Positions 1,056 through 12,795 of a stretch of 44,387 nt of DNA are shown here, in pieces (the first letter of the stretch is position 1; each line of letters starts with the position of its first letter). The position numbers were made by a program, and so were the translations under genes. The notes below the pieces were generated by a model. The model saw only the letters and a list, made by a program, of their open reading frames with translations. It made no database searches and was not told where the DNA came from. The stretch is from a virus. The DNA lies in IMG/VR virus record IMGVR_UViG_3300007735_000869, positions 1 through 44,387 of that record. One strand, 5' to 3'.

Positions 1056-1167
1056 ATCGGAGTGGCGGAAGCAAACAAGTCGACTAAGTTTGCAAGCTAG
1101 ACGTAACCAGTTATGGTCGGCACAGGGTAACCGAGCCGTAGAGGTGCAAATCCTCTCTCCGATACCA
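1056..1167 (+). tRNA. tRNA-like element, 112 nt, oversized; isotype not assignable
   Basis: A perfect 7-bp acceptor stem pairs ATCGGAG (1056-1062) with CTCCGAT (1157-1163). It is followed by a discriminator A and an encoded CCA. A perfect 5-bp T-stem, AGAGG/CCTCT, encloses the loop TGCAAAT (1145-1151). The middle is too long for an ordinary tRNA and contains several hairpins: GCAAAC/GTTTGC (1071-1076/1088-1093), ACCA-GTTA-TGGT, and CGGC/GCCG just before the T arm. I could not place a standard 7-base anticodon loop. It may be a type II (Leu/Ser-like) tRNA with an insertion or intron, or a tRNA mimic. Confidence 0.55.
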
Positions 1168-1178
1168 CAGTAATTTTA

Positions 1179-1251
1179 TTGCGGGGAAGTGGATAAGTAC
1201 CACGCGGGTCTCATAAGCCCGAGAACTGGAGCGTTACCAGCGACCGCAACA
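1179..1251 (+). tRNA. Degenerate tRNA-Met(CAT)-like gene
   Basis: The anticodon arm is clear: CGGGT-CTCATAA-GCCCG, with T33, anticodon CAT and purine 37. A D-arm GTGG-ATAAGTA-CCAC precedes it and a short T-like arm CTGG-AGCGTTA-CCAG follows. The acceptor TTGCGG pairs with CCGCAA. Deviations are a mismatch at the base of the acceptor stem, a T-loop without TTC, and no encoded CCA. It could be a divergent initiator, elongator Met or Ile2 tRNA. It sits twelve bases after the oversized tRNA-like element. Confidence 0.6.
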
Positions 1252-1678: not shown

Positions 1679-2092
1679 GGGGATGATTTGGCATTTGATC
1701 CGGATGCAAAGGGTAATATCACACGCAGAGGCATGGTTCTAATCCTCTTTAATACTTGAACAAAACTATAAACGACAACAAAAAATCTCGTCAAGAAATC
1801 GGTGCATCTATTATCAACATGGCTTTTGCTAATGTAGCTGTAGCTGCCTAAGATCTAAGGATCTTTTCTTTCCCTGGCAACTTGGGTGAAACAGTAAGTT
1901 GCAATCAGGTTTTCTTAGTTGAACCAGTTAATCAACTGAGTGGTGGAGCGTTCTAACTTTCGGTTAGTTCCCTAATTACGGTGCAAAAATAACGGGGGTT
2001 CACCCTCTTGATTATCTTAGTACTAAGCGTGTGAAACGTTGGTATTATTGTTTCTTTCGGAGACCGCGGTTCGATCCCGCGCATCTCCACCA
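1679..2092 (+). ncRNA. ssrA: tmRNA (transfer-messenger RNA), 414 nt, phage-encoded
   Basis: The ends form an alanine-tRNA-like domain. GGGGATG (1679-1685) pairs over 7 bp with CATCTCC (2082-2088), including a G3-U70 wobble, the alanyl-tRNA synthetase identity element. A perfect T-stem CGCGG/CCGCG with loop TTCGATC is followed by discriminator A and CCA (2090-2092). A long-range helix 2 is visible: TCACACGC (1719-1726) pairs with GCGTGTGA (2027-2034). Inside is a tag-like frame ending M-A-F-A-N-V-A-V-A-A-stop (1819-1851), with the stop at the edge of hairpin AAGATC/GATCTT (1850-1865). Several pseudoknot-type stems follow, such as GCAACTT/AAGTTGC. The resume codon is not certain; the frame is open back to about 1765. 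It would rescue stalled ribosomes and tag proteins for proteolysis. Confidence 0.9.
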
Positions 2093-2148: not shown

Positions 2149-2679
2149 ATGAAAAAAACAGTATTACTCTTAGCAGTAATTTTGGGATCATTCTCATTGA
2201 CGACTGTAAGCGCCCAAAAAAATTCCGCTATATTGAGTGGAACGGTATCTTACACAAAAGCAAAAGATGTTAAAGCTTCTTATAGCATCAACCCTCTAAT
2301 AGGTTACTTCGTAACCGATAAAGTGGCGGTTGGCGTTTTGGGAGGTCTTAGCAAAACAGATTCGGCAAACAAAGCTACTAGCGTAGGAGTTTTCGGAAGG
2401 TGCCACTTCTTGAACATTGGCAAAAAATGTCTTATCTTCTCTCAGTTGGATTTGACAAGCAATTCTGAAACGGTAGAAAACGTAAAAACAAAGTCTACTT
2501 GCGTTAATCTTGGATTGGGAGCTAACTACACTTTAACTAAAAAGTTAGATCTAACCATGCACGTTACGAATTTGGCTACGTACGTAAGTACAGAAGGAGC
2601 TTCTGCCTTTACGGTAGGATTCTCTGGAGTTGCCAATCCGTTCGCAACGACTGGATTCGGTGTGATCTACAAATTCTAA
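2149..2679 (+). CDS. Outer-membrane beta-barrel protein with signal peptide, 176 aa
   Basis: The chosen start gives MKKTVLLLAVILGSF and a signal peptide ending VSA before QK. The in-frame ATG at 2092 is the last base of the tmRNA CCA and is rejected. The mature protein alternates polar and hydrophobic residues in about eight strands with repeated Gly-x-Gly turns. It ends in a strand with terminal Phe (GFGVIYKF), the usual barrel assembly signal. This fits the small OmpX/OmpW-like or PorT-like barrels of Bacteroidota. In a phage it could alter the infected cell's surface, for instance to block superinfection, but that is inference. A strong terminator follows. Confidence 0.78.
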   Translation: MKKTVLLLAVILGSFSLTTVSAQKNSAILSGTVSYTKAKDVKASYSINPLIGYFVTDKVAVGVLGGLSKTDSANKATSVGVFGRCHFLNIGKKCLIFSQLDLTSNSETVENVKTKSTCVNLGLGANYTLTKKLDLTMHVTNLATYVSTEGASAFTVGFSGVANPFATTGFGVIYKF

Positions 2680-3807: not shown

Positions 3808-4140
3808 ATGTTCAGTTCACCGTCAGTTGCGATAATGATTTCAGGGGTTTTAATATCTCTACTCTTTATCTGTGCAGCATTATATTTTGTCTACAAGTTA
3901 TTTGCTAACAACGCTCAGGAGGTATTAGTTAGGTTTATCCTATTAATATTTACAGCGTTGGTTGGAGTATGGACAGTCGATAAGATAGTTGCATTCAAGA
4001 TCAATCTACTATCAGAACAACAAGATAACGAACTGTTTGATCTAATCAAGACTCTCATACTAATGATATTCAGTTACTATTTCGGAACTAAAAACACAAA
4101 TAAAGATGAATGTACAGAAACTAAAGGGACACGTTCCTGA
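3808..4140 (+). CDS. Membrane protein, second holin candidate, 110 aa
   Basis: Three hydrophobic segments are visible (about residues 8-30, 42-62 and 82-96) before a short charged tail (KNTNKDECTETKG). The topology fits a class I holin. The last 35 bases overlap the endolysin start, so the two are translationally coupled, the usual holin-endolysin arrangement. With the two-helix protein at the cassette's head this could form a holin/antiholin pair. Confidence 0.62.
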   Translation: MFSSPSVAIMISGVLISLLFICAALYFVYKLFANNAQEVLVRFILLIFTALVGVWTVDKIVAFKINLLSEQQDNELFDLIKTLILMIFSYYFGTKNTNKDECTETKGTRS

Positions 4141-4705
4141 TACAGTTATAGCTCAGATTCCTGATGTTATGGCTAAATTTGAAATCAACACACCACTTCG
4201 CTTGGCTCATTTCTTAGCTCAGTGCGGACATGAATCAGGTGGCTTTAAAGTTGTAAACGAGAACCTAAACTACAGCGCTAAAGGATTATTAGGAGTATTT
4301 AAGAAATACTTCCCCGATGGAACCAAAGCAGCATTGTACGAGCGTAAGCCAGAAAAGATTGCTAACTTAGTTTACGGTAACAGAATGGGTAACGGACCTG
4401 AAGCATCAGGAGACGGATTCAAATTCAGAGGAAGAGGTTATATCCAGTTGACTGGAAAGGACAACTACAAAGCATTCGATGCAGTTGTACCTGAGAATCT
4501 ACTTGAATCTCCAGATTTAGTAGCAACTAAGTATCCATTGCTATCTGCAGCTTGGTTCTTTCACAAAAACGGACTACATAAGATAGCAGACGGTGGAGCT
4601 ACAGACACTGTAGTAACATCAGTAACAAAACGAGTGAACGGCGGAACTATCGGTTTAGCTGATCGCATTAAACACTTTAAAGAATATTACTCTTTATTAG
4701 CATAA
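4106..4705 (+). CDS. Endolysin, glycoside hydrolase family 19 (chitinase-like lysozyme)
   Basis: The protein would hydrolyse cell-wall peptidoglycan glycan at lysis. It carries the GH19 signature: FLAQCGHESGGF (Glu43 is the probable catalytic acid), NYSAKGLL, YGNRMGNG, and FRGRGYIQLTGKDNY, the conserved substrate-cleft stretch, then AAWFF and the C-terminal TKRVNGG segment. At 199 aa it is a complete single-domain enzyme of usual phage length. There is no signal peptide, so export depends on a holin. A terminator follows 27 bases downstream. Confidence 0.93.
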   Translation: MNVQKLKGHVPDTVIAQIPDVMAKFEINTPLRLAHFLAQCGHESGGFKVVNENLNYSAKGLLGVFKKYFPDGTKAALYERKPEKIANLVYGNRMGNGPEASGDGFKFRGRGYIQLTGKDNYKAFDAVVPENLLESPDLVATKYPLLSAAWFFHKNGLHKIADGGATDTVVTSVTKRVNGGTIGLADRIKHFKEYYSLLA

Positions 4706-8277: not shown

Positions 8278-9585
8278 ATGAATAAACAATATTGCGTTAT
8301 TTCCTGCCCGATAGACACCTATTCAGGTTATGGAGCAAGATCAAGAGATTTCGTAAAAGCAATTTACGAATTAAAAAAAGAAGATTGGACAATTGAAATT
8401 CTATCTCAAAGATGGGGAGCGACTCCTTGGAATTATATAAAAGAGAACTCAAAAGATTGGAGTTTTTTGGAGCCTCTTATAAATAAAACAGGACAGATAA
8501 CACAACAGCCAGACATTTGGATTCAAGTAACAATTCCTAATGAATTTCAACCAATAGGAAAATTCAATATAGGAGTTACTGCCGGAATAGAAACAACTCT
8601 ATGTCACGCTTCTTGGTTAGATGGACTAAATAGAATGAATCTAAACTTTGTCTCATCAGAACACGCCAAATCAGTTTTTAAGAATACGTTTTTTGAAGAA
8701 AAGAATCAACAAGGTCAAGTCGTAAGACAAATAAAATTAGAGAAACCAGTAGAAGTGCTTTTTGAAGGAGTGGATTTAAATAAGTATTTTCATATCGAAG
8801 AAAAAGATTTGCAAAAAACAGAAATATTAGAAAGTTTAAATAGCATCAAAGAATCTTTTTGTTATTTGTTTGTTGGACATTGGTTGCAAGGAGAAATAGG
8901 CGAAGACAGAAAAAATGTTGCACTAATGTTAAAAACATTCTTAGAAACTTTTAAAGGCAAAAAAAATAAGCCTGCGTTAATAATGAAAACGTCTGGAGCT
9001 GGATCTAGTATCATGGATCGTGATGAAATTCTCAAAAAGATAGATATAATAAGAAACTTTATTGGTGATAAAGATTTGCCCAATGTATATCTTCTTCATG
9101 GAGATATGTTCGATGAAGATATGAATATATTATATAATCATCCAAAAGTAAAAGCTATGGTGAATCTGACAAAAGGAGAGGGATTTGGAAGACCTCTGTT
9201 AGAATTCAGTTTATCTAAAAAACCAATTATAGCTTCAAATTGGTCTGGCCATGTAGATTTTTTATCTGATGATTTTTGTTGCTTAGTTAATGGAGAAGTA
9301 AAACAAATACATCCATCAGCAGTTGTAGAGAATATGTTAATCCCAGAATCAGGTTGGTTTTCTGCAAATTTAGGAGAAGCGAAATATTATTTGAAAGATG
9401 TTTTTGAAGACTATGAAAAATATTTGGAAAAAGCAAAAAGACAAGCTTATAAATCAAAAATACAATTCTCGTTAGACAAAATGAAAGATTTATTGGCTAT
9501 TAATTTAGAAGTCATTCCTAAAAAAGTAGAATTAAAACTTCCTACTCTTAAAAAAATAGAATTACCTAAACTTAAAAAACTTTAA
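8278..9585 (+). CDS. GT-B glycosyltransferase, GT4-like, 435 aa
   Basis: A second GT-B enzyme. The N-terminus has GYGARSRDFVKAI, typical of the acceptor-domain start. The C-terminal domain contains GEGFGRPLLEFSLSKKPII, an E-x7-E donor-site motif, followed by ASNWSGHVDFL. It ends in a repetitive Lys/Leu/Pro tail (about residues 418-435, with K-L-P-T-L-K-K-I-E-L-P-K-L-K-K-L) that may be an interaction peptide. Donor and acceptor cannot be told from sequence. Confidence 0.85.
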   Translation: MNKQYCVISCPIDTYSGYGARSRDFVKAIYELKKEDWTIEILSQRWGATPWNYIKENSKDWSFLEPLINKTGQITQQPDIWIQVTIPNEFQPIGKFNIGVTAGIETTLCHASWLDGLNRMNLNFVSSEHAKSVFKNTFFEEKNQQGQVVRQIKLEKPVEVLFEGVDLNKYFHIEEKDLQKTEILESLNSIKESFCYLFVGHWLQGEIGEDRKNVALMLKTFLETFKGKKNKPALIMKTSGAGSSIMDRDEILKKIDIIRNFIGDKDLPNVYLLHGDMFDEDMNILYNHPKVKAMVNLTKGEGFGRPLLEFSLSKKPIIASNWSGHVDFLSDDFCCLVNGEVKQIHPSAVVENMLIPESGWFSANLGEAKYYLKDVFEDYEKYLEKAKRQAYKSKIQFSLDKMKDLLAINLEVIPKKVELKLPTLKKIELPKLKKL

Positions 9586-9586
9586 T

Positions 9587-9856
9587 ATGACTGAAAAAGA
9601 ATTCGTAACATGGTTCAAAGGTTTCGTATCAGCAGCCAACACTTTCAATATAACTCCAAAACAATGGGATTCTATTTGCGAACAATTAGAGAAAGTTAAA
9701 GAGATTAATGAGGAATCAAAAAGTTATAGTAGATATATGTTAGATATAGATACGAGTAATAGTAATTGGACTAGCACAACCATAACTAATGCAGATAGAA
9801 ATAACGTATCATATAAAAAAGATAATTTAGAAACAAAAACTATTTTAAATGACTGA
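9587..9856 (+). CDS. Hypothetical protein, 89 aa
   Basis: A small protein opening with a helical segment (EKEFVTWFKGFVSAAN, then ITPKQWDSICEQLEKV) and ending in a low-complexity Ser/Thr/Asn-rich tail. The N-terminal pattern is common in small phage proteins, but I cannot name its function. It starts one base after a glycosyltransferase and overlaps the following zinc-ribbon gene by eight bases, so it is part of the operon. Confidence 0.68.
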   Translation: MTEKEFVTWFKGFVSAANTFNITPKQWDSICEQLEKVKEINEESKSYSRYMLDIDTSNSNWTSTTITNADRNNVSYKKDNLETKTILND

Positions 9857-10304: not shown

Positions 10305-10925
10305 ATGCCATCAATAAGTTATGCAATACCCGTATGCAATGAGCATAGAGAGTTAGATAAATTACTTTCACTACTAATTGAATATAAACGATCGCAAGAC
10401 GAAATAGTAGTTCAATGCGATTTGGGAAACACAACTAGAGAAGTTTATGAAATTATTGAAAAATATAAATTGCATATAAAAGTTTTAGAGTTTGCATTAA
10501 AAGGAAATTTTGCAGCATTTAAAAATAATTTAAAAGAAAATTGCACAGGAGCTTGGATATTTCAAATAGACGCAGACGAACTATTACACGAAGAATTTTT
10601 ACAGCATCTTCCTCAAATTTTAAGAGATAATCCTACTGTAGAACTTTTCTGTTTACCAAGAATTAATACTGTCGAAGGCTTAACTCAAGAGCATATTGCA
10701 AAATGGAGATGGAACGTCAATGAAAAAGGATGGGTAAATTTCCCCGATATACAAACTAGAATAATTCAAAATTCTCCAAAAATACAATGGGTTGGTAAAG
10801 TTCATGAAGTAATCTATGGACATAGATCTCAAGCAGTTCTACCCATACAAGAAGAATATTGTATACTACACCATAAACATATAAGACGCCAAGAAGTGCA
10901 AAATACATTATATTCAATGATATGA
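10305..10925 (+). CDS. GT2-like glycosyltransferase, short, 206 aa
   Basis: The N-terminus SISYAIPVCNEHRELDKLLSLL is the start of a GT-A/GT2 nucleotide-binding fold, and FQIDADELLHEEFL holds the D-x-D metal-binding motif. The segment KWRWNVNEKGWVNFPDIQTRI, followed by a His before GHRS and HHKHIR, resembles WaaE/KdtX-type lipid-A-core glucosyltransferases. At 206 aa it is shorter than the family norm but looks complete. The stop overlaps the gmd start by four bases. Confidence 0.8.
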   Translation: MPSISYAIPVCNEHRELDKLLSLLIEYKRSQDEIVVQCDLGNTTREVYEIIEKYKLHIKVLEFALKGNFAAFKNNLKENCTGAWIFQIDADELLHEEFLQHLPQILRDNPTVELFCLPRINTVEGLTQEHIAKWRWNVNEKGWVNFPDIQTRIIQNSPKIQWVGKVHEVIYGHRSQAVLPIQEEYCILHHKHIRRQEVQNTLYSMI

Positions 10926-11893
10926 AAAAAGCATTAATAACTGGAATAAACGGACAAGACGGATCATACCTAGCAGAGTATCTAATCGAAATAGGATACG
11001 AAGTCCACGGTATTTTAAAAAGAAATTCTGTAGCAGAAAATCAAACAGCGAGATTGGATAACATATTTGATAAATTGAATTTACACTACGCTGATATGAC
11101 AGATATATCATCTTTATATAGAGTAATAAATCAAGTTAAACCTGACGAGATATATAATTTAGCGGCTCAATCTCACGTTAGAATATCCTTCGATCAGCCT
11201 ATATATACTGTAAATGCAACTGGTGTCAGTGTTCTTAATTTATTAGAAGCGGTAAAAGAAATAGATCCATCTATAAAAATATATCAAGCGTCGTCTTCTG
11301 AAATGTTTGGGAACTCTATAGATAAAGACGGTTATCAAAGAGAAACAACTCCCATGAATCCAGTGTCTCCTTACGGATGCGCAAAAGTTTTTGCCTATAA
11401 TATAAGTAGAAACTACAGACATTCATATAACATGTTTATATCTAACGGAATACTATTTAATCATGAGAGTCCTAGAAGAGGTACTAACTTCGTAACAAAT
11501 AAAGTATGTAAAGAAGCTGTAAAAATAAAATTGGGATTATCTAACGAGTTAAAATTAGGCAATTTAAATGCAACTAGAGATTGGGGACATGCAAAAGATT
11601 ATGTTAAAGCAATGCATCAAATTCTGCAATTAGATAAACCTGACGATTTTATATGCGCTACTGGAATATCTCACTCTGTTCAAGAACTTTGTGAATATGT
11701 GTTTACAGCATTGGATCTAGATTGGAAGAATTACGTAAAACAAGACGAAAAATTTTTAAGACCTGAGGAATTAAATGATCTCAAAGGAGATGCATCAAAA
11801 TTGATTGGTTCTACTGGTTGGAAACCGACATATACTTTCAAATCCATGTTATTGGAAATGATTAATTATTGGATAAAACATTACGAAAAATGA
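10922..11893 (+). CDS. gmd: GDP-mannose 4,6-dehydratase
   Basis: Converts GDP-D-mannose to GDP-4-keto-6-deoxy-D-mannose, the first step to GDP-L-fucose and related sugars. The NADP-binding motif TGINGQDGSYLAEYL, the conserved HGILKRNS, YNLAAQSHVRISFDQP, SSSEMFG, and the active-site YxxxK (YGCAKVFAYN) are all present, as is the NHESPRRGTNFVT stretch typical of Gmd. At 323 aa it is slightly shorter than many homologues. It overlaps the next gene as ATGA, making a gmd-fcl pair. Confidence 0.94.
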   Translation: MKKALITGINGQDGSYLAEYLIEIGYEVHGILKRNSVAENQTARLDNIFDKLNLHYADMTDISSLYRVINQVKPDEIYNLAAQSHVRISFDQPIYTVNATGVSVLNLLEAVKEIDPSIKIYQASSSEMFGNSIDKDGYQRETTPMNPVSPYGCAKVFAYNISRNYRHSYNMFISNGILFNHESPRRGTNFVTNKVCKEAVKIKLGLSNELKLGNLNATRDWGHAKDYVKAMHQILQLDKPDDFICATGISHSVQELCEYVFTALDLDWKNYVKQDEKFLRPEELNDLKGDASKLIGSTGWKPTYTFKSMLLEMINYWIKHYEK

Positions 11894-12795
11894 GTAAAAT
11901 ATTAATAACAGGAGGAACTGGGTTAATCGGTTCCGCTTTTAAACAAGGGAAAAAAGTTGGATCTAAAGATTATGATCTTAGAGATCAATATCAAACAAAC
12001 CAAATGCTTTCAGATAACGATCCAGACATAGTCATTCATACAGCAGCCAAAGTAGGAGGAATTGGAGCAAATATGCAATATCCTGCCGATTTTTATTATG
12101 ATAATATAATGATGAATACGAACGTTATAGAAAGTTCATTTCAACACGGAGTAAAAAAATTAGTTTGTTTTTTATCTACATGCGTATTTCCTGATAAAAT
12201 AGAATATCCTCTGACCGAAAATAAAATACATCAAGGAGAACCCCATACGAGTAATGCTCCGTACGCTTACGCAAAAAGAATGGCTGATGTTCAAATCCAA
12301 GCTTATAATAGTCAATATCAAACAAAATATTTTTCAGTTATTCCGTGTAACGTTTACGGAATTAATGATAATTTTGATTTACAAAATGGTCATGTGATAC
12401 CAATGTTAATACACAAGTGCTGGTTAGCAAAACAAAACAATATTCCTTTTGAAATTTGGGGAGATGGATCTGCTCTTAGAGAGTTTATTTTTGCAGAAGA
12501 CGTTGCGAATATAATTCTAAAATTAGTGGACACATACGATGGAATAGATCCAATTATAATATCCAATCCTCAAGAATATTCTATAAAGCAGGTAGTTGAA
12601 TTGATTGTAAAATATATGGAATTTGATGGAGATATTAAATGGCTTGCCGATAAGCCAAATGGACAGCATAGAAAGCCTTCATCAAATAAAAAATTATTGA
12701 GTGTAATAGGAGAATATAATTTCACTACTTTAGAAATAGGTTTAAAAAATACAATAGAATGGTTTAAATTGAATCATAACAAAATAAGGAAATAA
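11890..12795 (+). CDS. fcl: GDP-L-fucose synthase
   Basis: Epimerises and reduces GDP-4-keto-6-deoxy-mannose to GDP-L-fucose. It shows the Rossmann motif ITGGTGLIGSAF, the family's VGGIGANMQYPADFYYDNIMMN segment, SSTC-like LSTCVFPD, and the catalytic Y-x3-K in APYAYAKRM. The C-terminal half has GDGSALREFIFAEDVA, a substrate-binding hallmark. The start at 11890 overlaps the gmd stop and gives the usual N-terminus MSKILITGG; an upstream in-frame ATG at 11869 is less likely. With gmd it supplies the donor for the fucosyltransferase domains encoded at 20760. Confidence 0.93.
   Translation: MSKILITGGTGLIGSAFKQGKKVGSKDYDLRDQYQTNQMLSDNDPDIVIHTAAKVGGIGANMQYPADFYYDNIMMNTNVIESSFQHGVKKLVCFLSTCVFPDKIEYPLTENKIHQGEPHTSNAPYAYAKRMADVQIQAYNSQYQTKYFSVIPCNVYGINDNFDLQNGHVIPMLIHKCWLAKQNNIPFEIWGDGSALREFIFAEDVANIILKLVDTYDGIDPIIISNPQEYSIKQVVELIVKYMEFDGDIKWLADKPNGQHRKPSSNKKLLSVIGEYNFTTLEIGLKNTIEWFKLNHNKIRK

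Follow-up and report, generated by a model that had tools for sequence, protein, structure and literature searches.

The peptide tags encoded by tmRNAs are usually treated as degrons. Their most frequent length is 10 residues (PMC11915505), and tmRNA genes are present in 402 of 18,146 phage genomes (PMC9004378). Phage tmRNAs have been listed (PMC4131195), the Cellulophaga phage Calle (Callevirus) is reported to have one tmRNA (PMC8776804), and huge phages encode both tmRNA and SmpB (PMC7162821). When read with ARAGORN, the tag of phage BillNye has 20 residues and that of phage G has 13, and phage tmRNAs and phage tags of 20 to 25 residues are already known or present (ET08, phi38:1, BillNye). 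The tmRNA genes of the bacterial side are represented by 25 Bacteroidota chromosomal loci, of which 18 are read by ARAGORN with tags of 8 to 10 residues, mostly of the form Gly-x-x-x-Tyr-Ala-[LMF]-Ala-Ala, and six have no ARAGORN tag; a 15-residue tag at locus L096 (start position 214) looks like a reading in the wrong frame and was set aside.

The locus described here belongs to a family of phage tmRNAs with tags that are two to three times as long as those of the Bacteroidota hosts sampled. What distinguishes this family is that its long tags retain the AA degron, whereas the long tags of ET08 (...AALV), BillNye (...LVTV) and phi38:1 (...VGV) end without AA. The unusual part of the tag is a stretch of about 15 residues added at its N-terminus, which, as the comparison of family members indicates, is conserved as a peptide throughout this large family of phages.

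The tmRNA gene of the window

The sequence that was analysed (the window) is a stretch of 44,387 bases from the IMG/VR virus record IMGVR_UViG_3300007735_000869. ARAGORN finds only one tmRNA in the window, at 1679-2092 (+), with the tag DNKKSRQEIGASIINMAFANVAVAA followed by a stop codon. The Rfam model RF00023 matches exactly the same bases on the same strand with a score of 88.5 bits (E 3.7e-33, model positions 1-374), when compared with a gathering score of 47. Since two programs independently give identical coordinates, the tmRNA is real, and 1679-2092 (+) is confirmed as a complete and genuine one-piece tmRNA gene (ssrA). This is in agreement with the preliminary description, which had read these positions as a tmRNA, and not a mere tRNA, in a phage genome: the record is viral and has phage genes around the locus, and the coordinates, the acceptor with its G3-U70 pair, the T arm, the CCA and the tag end are all as given there. 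The permuted two-piece model RF04321 scores 24.5 bits against a cut-off of 47, and the gene order in the window is the standard one. A second copy of the 25 bases at the 3' end of the tmRNA is absent within the window, and the gene is complete.

All features of the gene are on the plus strand. The 5' acceptor strand GGGGATG (1679-1685) pairs with the 3' acceptor strand CATCTCC, which is followed by the discriminator A and the encoded CCA at 2090-2092 (2082-2092 in total, as seen in the sequence and in the RF00023 match); this pairing includes the alanine identity pair between G3 (1681) and U70 (2086). The T arm CGCGG-TTCGATC-CCGCG (2065-2081) is uninterrupted, with the loop TTCGATC intact and a T-loop group I intron absent from the window copy. 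In the 5' part, a PK1-type pseudoknot is formed by AGAGG (1727-1731) and CCTCT (1744-1748), crossing the second stem formed by GTTC (1736-1739) and GAAC (1758-1761). The PK2-PK4 region aligns to the RF00023 model with several mismatched pairs. The family signature, CTAAGCGTGTGAAACGTT (2023-2040), lies in the helix 2 region, on its 3' strand; the searches with its motif are described below.

The tag frame DNKKSRQEIGASIINMAFANVAVAA extends from the resume codon GAC at 1774 to the stop TAA (1774-1851), with 25 codons at 1774-1848 and the stop at 1849-1851. It is directly preceded by TAAAC (1769-1773), which abuts the resume codon and fits the pre-tag context of the family, [TC]AA[ACG][CT]. In the Rfam alignment GAC aligns with the consensus resume codon GCA, which is the same start as that given by ARAGORN. 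The preliminary description had allowed a tag of up to about 27 residues; a long tag is indeed found, with 25 residues as its exact length.

The long-tag family and selection on its tags

The family motif CTAAGCNTGTGARACGTT, which represents part of helix 2 (its 3' strand), retrieves 99 IMG/VR stretches, almost all of which are tmRNAs (L312 and L347 are matched and are not tmRNAs), and has zero matches among 295 Bacteroidia genomes. With a stricter second pattern one additional IMG/VR locus is obtained, and most of the tmRNAs retrieved with a general 5' pattern are short-tagged and either permuted or of the host type. Phage tmRNAs do not have long tags in general, because L148 and L222, on contigs of 188 and 207 kb, encode tags of 8-9 residues. 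All records are metagenomic, and most or all of them are fragments. Nucleotide searches of INPHARED gave no match for the tmRNA of the window, for that of a relative or for a 12-kb part of the window. The tag peptides also gave no match in tblastn searches against phages, where the queries are too short for a valid negative, because a Bxz1-type tag was unmatched as well, though ARAGORN finds that tag in ET08.

Tags were read from the window, the 99 motif stretches and earlier relatives, including some duplicate records, by taking the context [TC]AA[ACG][CT], followed by 18-32 residues ending in Ala, and keeping readings of 23-29 residues. This gave 93 readings and 52 distinct tags, all of 23-29 residues; the filter on length and on the terminal Ala constrains these tags, and just five of the tmRNA stretches were left without a reading. 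Of these, L273, L331 and L351 are cut at the contig end, the longer RNA of L355 carries a typical 26-residue tag, AKTRSQRVAEGEAVLASIFQTEAVAA, and in L346 the tag is shortened by an apparent deletion. The short ARAGORN readings of some members (ADYALAA, ANEYALAA) were rejected as starting from wrong resume codons, the conserved context being farther upstream. The tag cores are DEMSTMTFDDLMAFVGADYALAA-like, RQE[IE]GASIINMAFANVAVAA-like (type B, which is the type of the window) or QRVAEGEAILASIFGEVAVAA-like, with a few others.

The C-terminus is well preserved, as 49 of the 52 distinct tags close with A-[LVIMY]-A-A, and relatives have the ends NVALAA, NVAMAA and EYALAA. The tag had been described as unusual, which holds for its length and its phage specificity and does not hold for its C-terminus, which is not exotic. 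The degron is not universal in the family, as the ends of L310 (ATFA) and L341 (LELA) are altered and L346 seems to have lost its tag end. In the L346 tmRNA (4072-4454) the apparent deletion removes the tag end and part of the region beyond, so that the tag would read DEMSTMTFDDLMAFVGADYE before its stop; this is either a natural mutant or an assembly error.

The RNA structure is maintained by compensatory changes. Each of the acceptor pairs 4-7 occurs with all four Watson-Crick combinations (16 distinct stems from 84 tmRNAs, besides one AC cell and one TT cell), and G3-U70 is kept in all 16 distinct stems; as the search required GGG at the 5' side, TCC at the 3' side and at least 6 pairs, it accounts in part for the invariance of pairs 1-3 and for how fully the stems are paired, whereas it does not account for the variety of pair types. 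The T stems also vary in a paired fashion (23 distinct stems), and PK1, with differing complementary stems, is found in 47 of the 52 distinct family 5' regions, when compared with about 10% of mononucleotide shuffles.

Selection is also visible in the tag codons. The pN/pS values are 0.23 for the type A tags of 23 residues (25 distinct sequences), 0.62 and 0.64 for those of 24 and 25 residues, 0.47 and 0.35 for the type B tags of 25 and 27 residues and 0.56 for type C. Permutation of alignment columns gives P = 0.011, 0.004, 0.19, 0.04 and 0.004 for five tag groups and, when the type A core is pooled, P = 0.014; these codon-position tests are modest singly, as the value of 0.19 shows, and the sequences are related, and all tests are in the same direction. 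Because the tag codon differences concentrate at third positions, there is evidence that selection acts on the tag peptide, with the extension included, and not on the RNA alone. A selected extension suggests that the added part of the tag has some role.

Genome setting, neighbouring RNAs and introns

The window record is classed as linear, and the window is probably a fragment. Its genes include a GH19-type lysozyme and GP88, which was considered as a marker of phage kinship and rejected, having distant matches only. Among the relatives found via neighbour genes, L002, L003 and L007 have a tmRNA at the same place with an identical tag, and L004/L010 have the tag DNTELSDWTFEDAMAFVGADEYALAA. 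In the syntenic contig L006 (65 kb) the surrounding genes are kept and the tmRNA is absent, so the tmRNA is not essential in that lineage. The T4-like identity comes from the relatives, as the Gp23 region lies outside the window: a T4-like Gp23 capsid gene is present in all eight tested contigs of at least 135 kb and in two smaller ones, and the contigs with Gp23 span 94-245 kb. No SmpB was found in 27 phage records, which include that of the window; as there are fragments among them, this is no proof of its absence from the phages.

With respect to the host, we infer that the phage infects Bacteroidota. A region of about 22 kb of the window (6834-28770, +) contains glycosyltransferase, nucleotide-sugar (GDP-mannose dehydratase, fucose synthase), aminotransferase and related genes. 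At 10922-12795 it has two genes for fucose synthesis that are similar to a gene pair of Saprospiraceae, which hints at a Saprospiraceae-like host; for the first gene the identity is 69-71% with two genes of Saprospiraceae and does not exceed 53% with the others among the matches listed, and the second gene adjoins in one of these two Saprospiraceae matches.

Several further elements surround the tmRNA. Directly after it, at 2149-2679 (+), is a gene for a protein with a start like that of a signal peptide, which is conserved in L011 and L012, where no tmRNA is called, and also occurs in L006. The ORF had been listed with a start at 2092, which is probably wrong, since it overlaps the CCA of the tmRNA. 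An AG(T/A)TCTTTNANATAT-like element is found at 1664-1677, ending right at the 5' end of the tmRNA, and at 1264-1277, as well as upstream of 39 of 65 distinct relatives. It is not enriched across the window and may serve as a promoter or as a signal for processing. At 1056-1167 (+) the window has a tRNA-like RNA of type II character, which is also present at about 4119-4241 of L002 and in L004, L005, L006, L140, L353 and L358. It has an acceptor with compensatory changes, the sequence AGTGGCGGAA...AGACGT, a T loop starting with TGCRA and a hairpin insert in the D loop, and its anticodon arm is variable, with an 8-base loop ATTTCGTG in L002 and L006, 4-6 bases in the window and a TTCG loop in L358. 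The window copy is missed by ARAGORN and some of the others are named 'tRNA-???'; it is possibly a tRNA mimic without an anticodon. Beside it, at about 1179-1250 (+), the window has a tRNA-Met(CAT)-like gene, also missed by ARAGORN, with the T loop AGCGTTA instead of TTCRANY, where relatives have a normal tRNA-Met. In L358 a GOLLD RNA (RF02032, 299.8 bits) is found at 9188-9591 (-), about 1 kb from the phage tmRNA and near tRNA genes.

In four relatives (L140, L143, L315 and L340) the T loop of the tmRNA is interrupted after its second T by a group I intron, with the 5' exon ending in GGGTT. The three introns with a placeable end have 191, 191 and 208 bases and end with G, the L140 copy being at 1745-1935, and intron removal restores the T loop TTCGACT or TTCGAAT. 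The RF00028 scores are 49.1 bits for L140, just under the cut-off of 50, and 85.5 bits for L340. When tested with ARAGORN, two of three were called: L140 and L143 only after in-silico splicing, and L315, which has its 5' end cut off, neither spliced nor unspliced. Introns at this position (subsite 3) have been reported only from the class Bacteroidia (PMC11915505), and a search of an open-access library found no paper describing introns in phage tmRNAs. The introns of the four relatives are likewise at subsite 3, but in phage contigs, which suggests phages as possible carriers of the Bacteroidia subsite 3 introns.

As judged by eye, small HNH- or homing-endonuclease-like ORFs are located directly 3' of the tmRNA in L316, L332, L273, L140, L143, L319 and others, and the site after the tmRNA may attract mobile endonucleases. 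A stretch of L336 matches the HNH endonuclease of phage immuto. This Flavobacterium phage was considered as a cultured relative and rejected, as it shares an HNH endonuclease stretch but has no tmRNA.

Proposed function and relation to known tmRNAs

It is quite probable, on the sequence evidence, that the gene encodes a working tmRNA of a large T4-like (Gp23) Bacteroidota phage, which would use the SmpB and AlaRS of the host and of which the tag extension would be functional. After transcription the RNA would undergo tRNA-type end processing, and host AlaRS would charge it with alanine via G3-U70. Together with host SmpB, the charged tmRNA would enter ribosomes stalled on broken mRNA, and the ribosome would switch to GAC at 1774, add Ala and the 25-residue tag and stop at TAA. 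These steps of rescue, and the degradation that would follow, are taken from established tmRNA biology; the tagged proteins would most likely go to host ClpXP-type proteases, because the A-V-A-A end is a close variant of the host end. Most likely the 15 or so additional residues at the N-terminus of the tag contribute a function, for example by improving the engagement of a protease or by docking an adaptor; the simplest idea is that they lengthen an unstructured or docking segment ahead of the degron. A likely benefit would be that ribosomes are kept free during infection, when nucleases truncate many mRNAs and host tmRNA may be limiting. As a more specific proposal, put forward tentatively, the extension could be a phage-evolved functional peptide (for adaptor or protease docking, or with its own activity on stalled proteins) that alters how the products of trans-translation are handled in infection.

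It is unlikely that the long tag acts in the opposite sense, diverting tagged proteins from ClpXP or stabilising them. Such a role had been considered in the preliminary description, of which the interpretation is partly supported: a steering to other proteases is not indicated by the C-terminus, as NVAVAA is near the host-type NYALAA, and nothing supports a protection of phage proteins. A diversion would fit with an extension that is phage-specific and selected, with the tags of ET08, BillNye and phi38:1 that end without AA and with the altered ends of L310, L341 and L346, which show that the end can change, but it does not fit with A-[LVIMY]-A-A in 49 of the 52 distinct tags or with the window end VAVAA, which differs from that of the host by conservative changes.

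A decoy, which acts mainly by competing with host tmRNA or titrating SmpB and for which the tag is of little importance, is rather less probable still. Such a mode of action has been proposed for the DS6A molecule, which has no tag. DS6A encodes little beyond the tRNA-like domain, and tmRNA is inhibited by a molecule of this kind (PMC4131195, PMC11915505), and the lack of a phage SmpB in the records searched would also agree with a decoy, but the reading frame is complete and selected as a peptide, which is needless for a decoy. A passenger, that is, a host ssrA acquired via imprecise excision or as an attachment-site copy and having no phage function, is very improbable, since, although elements commonly integrate at ssrA and prophages can contain fragments of it (PMC9004378), this gene is complete with its 3' end once in the window, the family motif is absent from the 295 Bacteroidia genomes, the related contigs of 94-245 kb have the Gp23 capsid gene, and a selected tag, together with compensatory changes in the stems, is retained by many copies that have diverged, the covariation strongly disfavouring this explanation.

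For the working tmRNA proposed here, the tags of 23-29 residues, with their three recognisable conserved cores, are a natural series in which to ask for a second function of the tag, and the long-tag family also bears on why phages carry tmRNA at all.

The window tmRNA is most closely comparable to the one-piece tmRNA of Bacteroidota (RF00023), with which it shares the G3-U70 acceptor, the T arm, PK1, the resume context and the A-x-A-A tag end. The differences concern the tag, which has 25 residues instead of 8-10 (18 tags), starts with the resume codon GAC (Asp), whereas most sampled host tags start with Gly, and ends with NVAVAA instead of NYALAA, with Y changed to V and L changed to V. The Bxz1-type tmRNA of the mycobacteriophage ET08 is likewise a one-piece phage tmRNA with a 25-residue tag, ATDTDATVTDAEIEAFFAEEAAALV, but it is from an actinobacterial phage, its tag ends with ALV and not with AxAA, and this tag has no sequence similarity to that of the window. 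The one-piece tmRNA of the Cellulophaga phage phi38:1 (Callevirus) is likewise from a Bacteroidota phage and has a 22-residue tag, AQIEANMEAVNAILNLEVAVGV, but its tag ends with VGV, the family signature motif is absent and the genome has 72.5 kb. Melnitz and related marine phages are myophages that likewise encode a tmRNA, but in these phages it is a permuted two-piece tmRNA (PMC9004378), whereas that of the window is a one-piece tmRNA.
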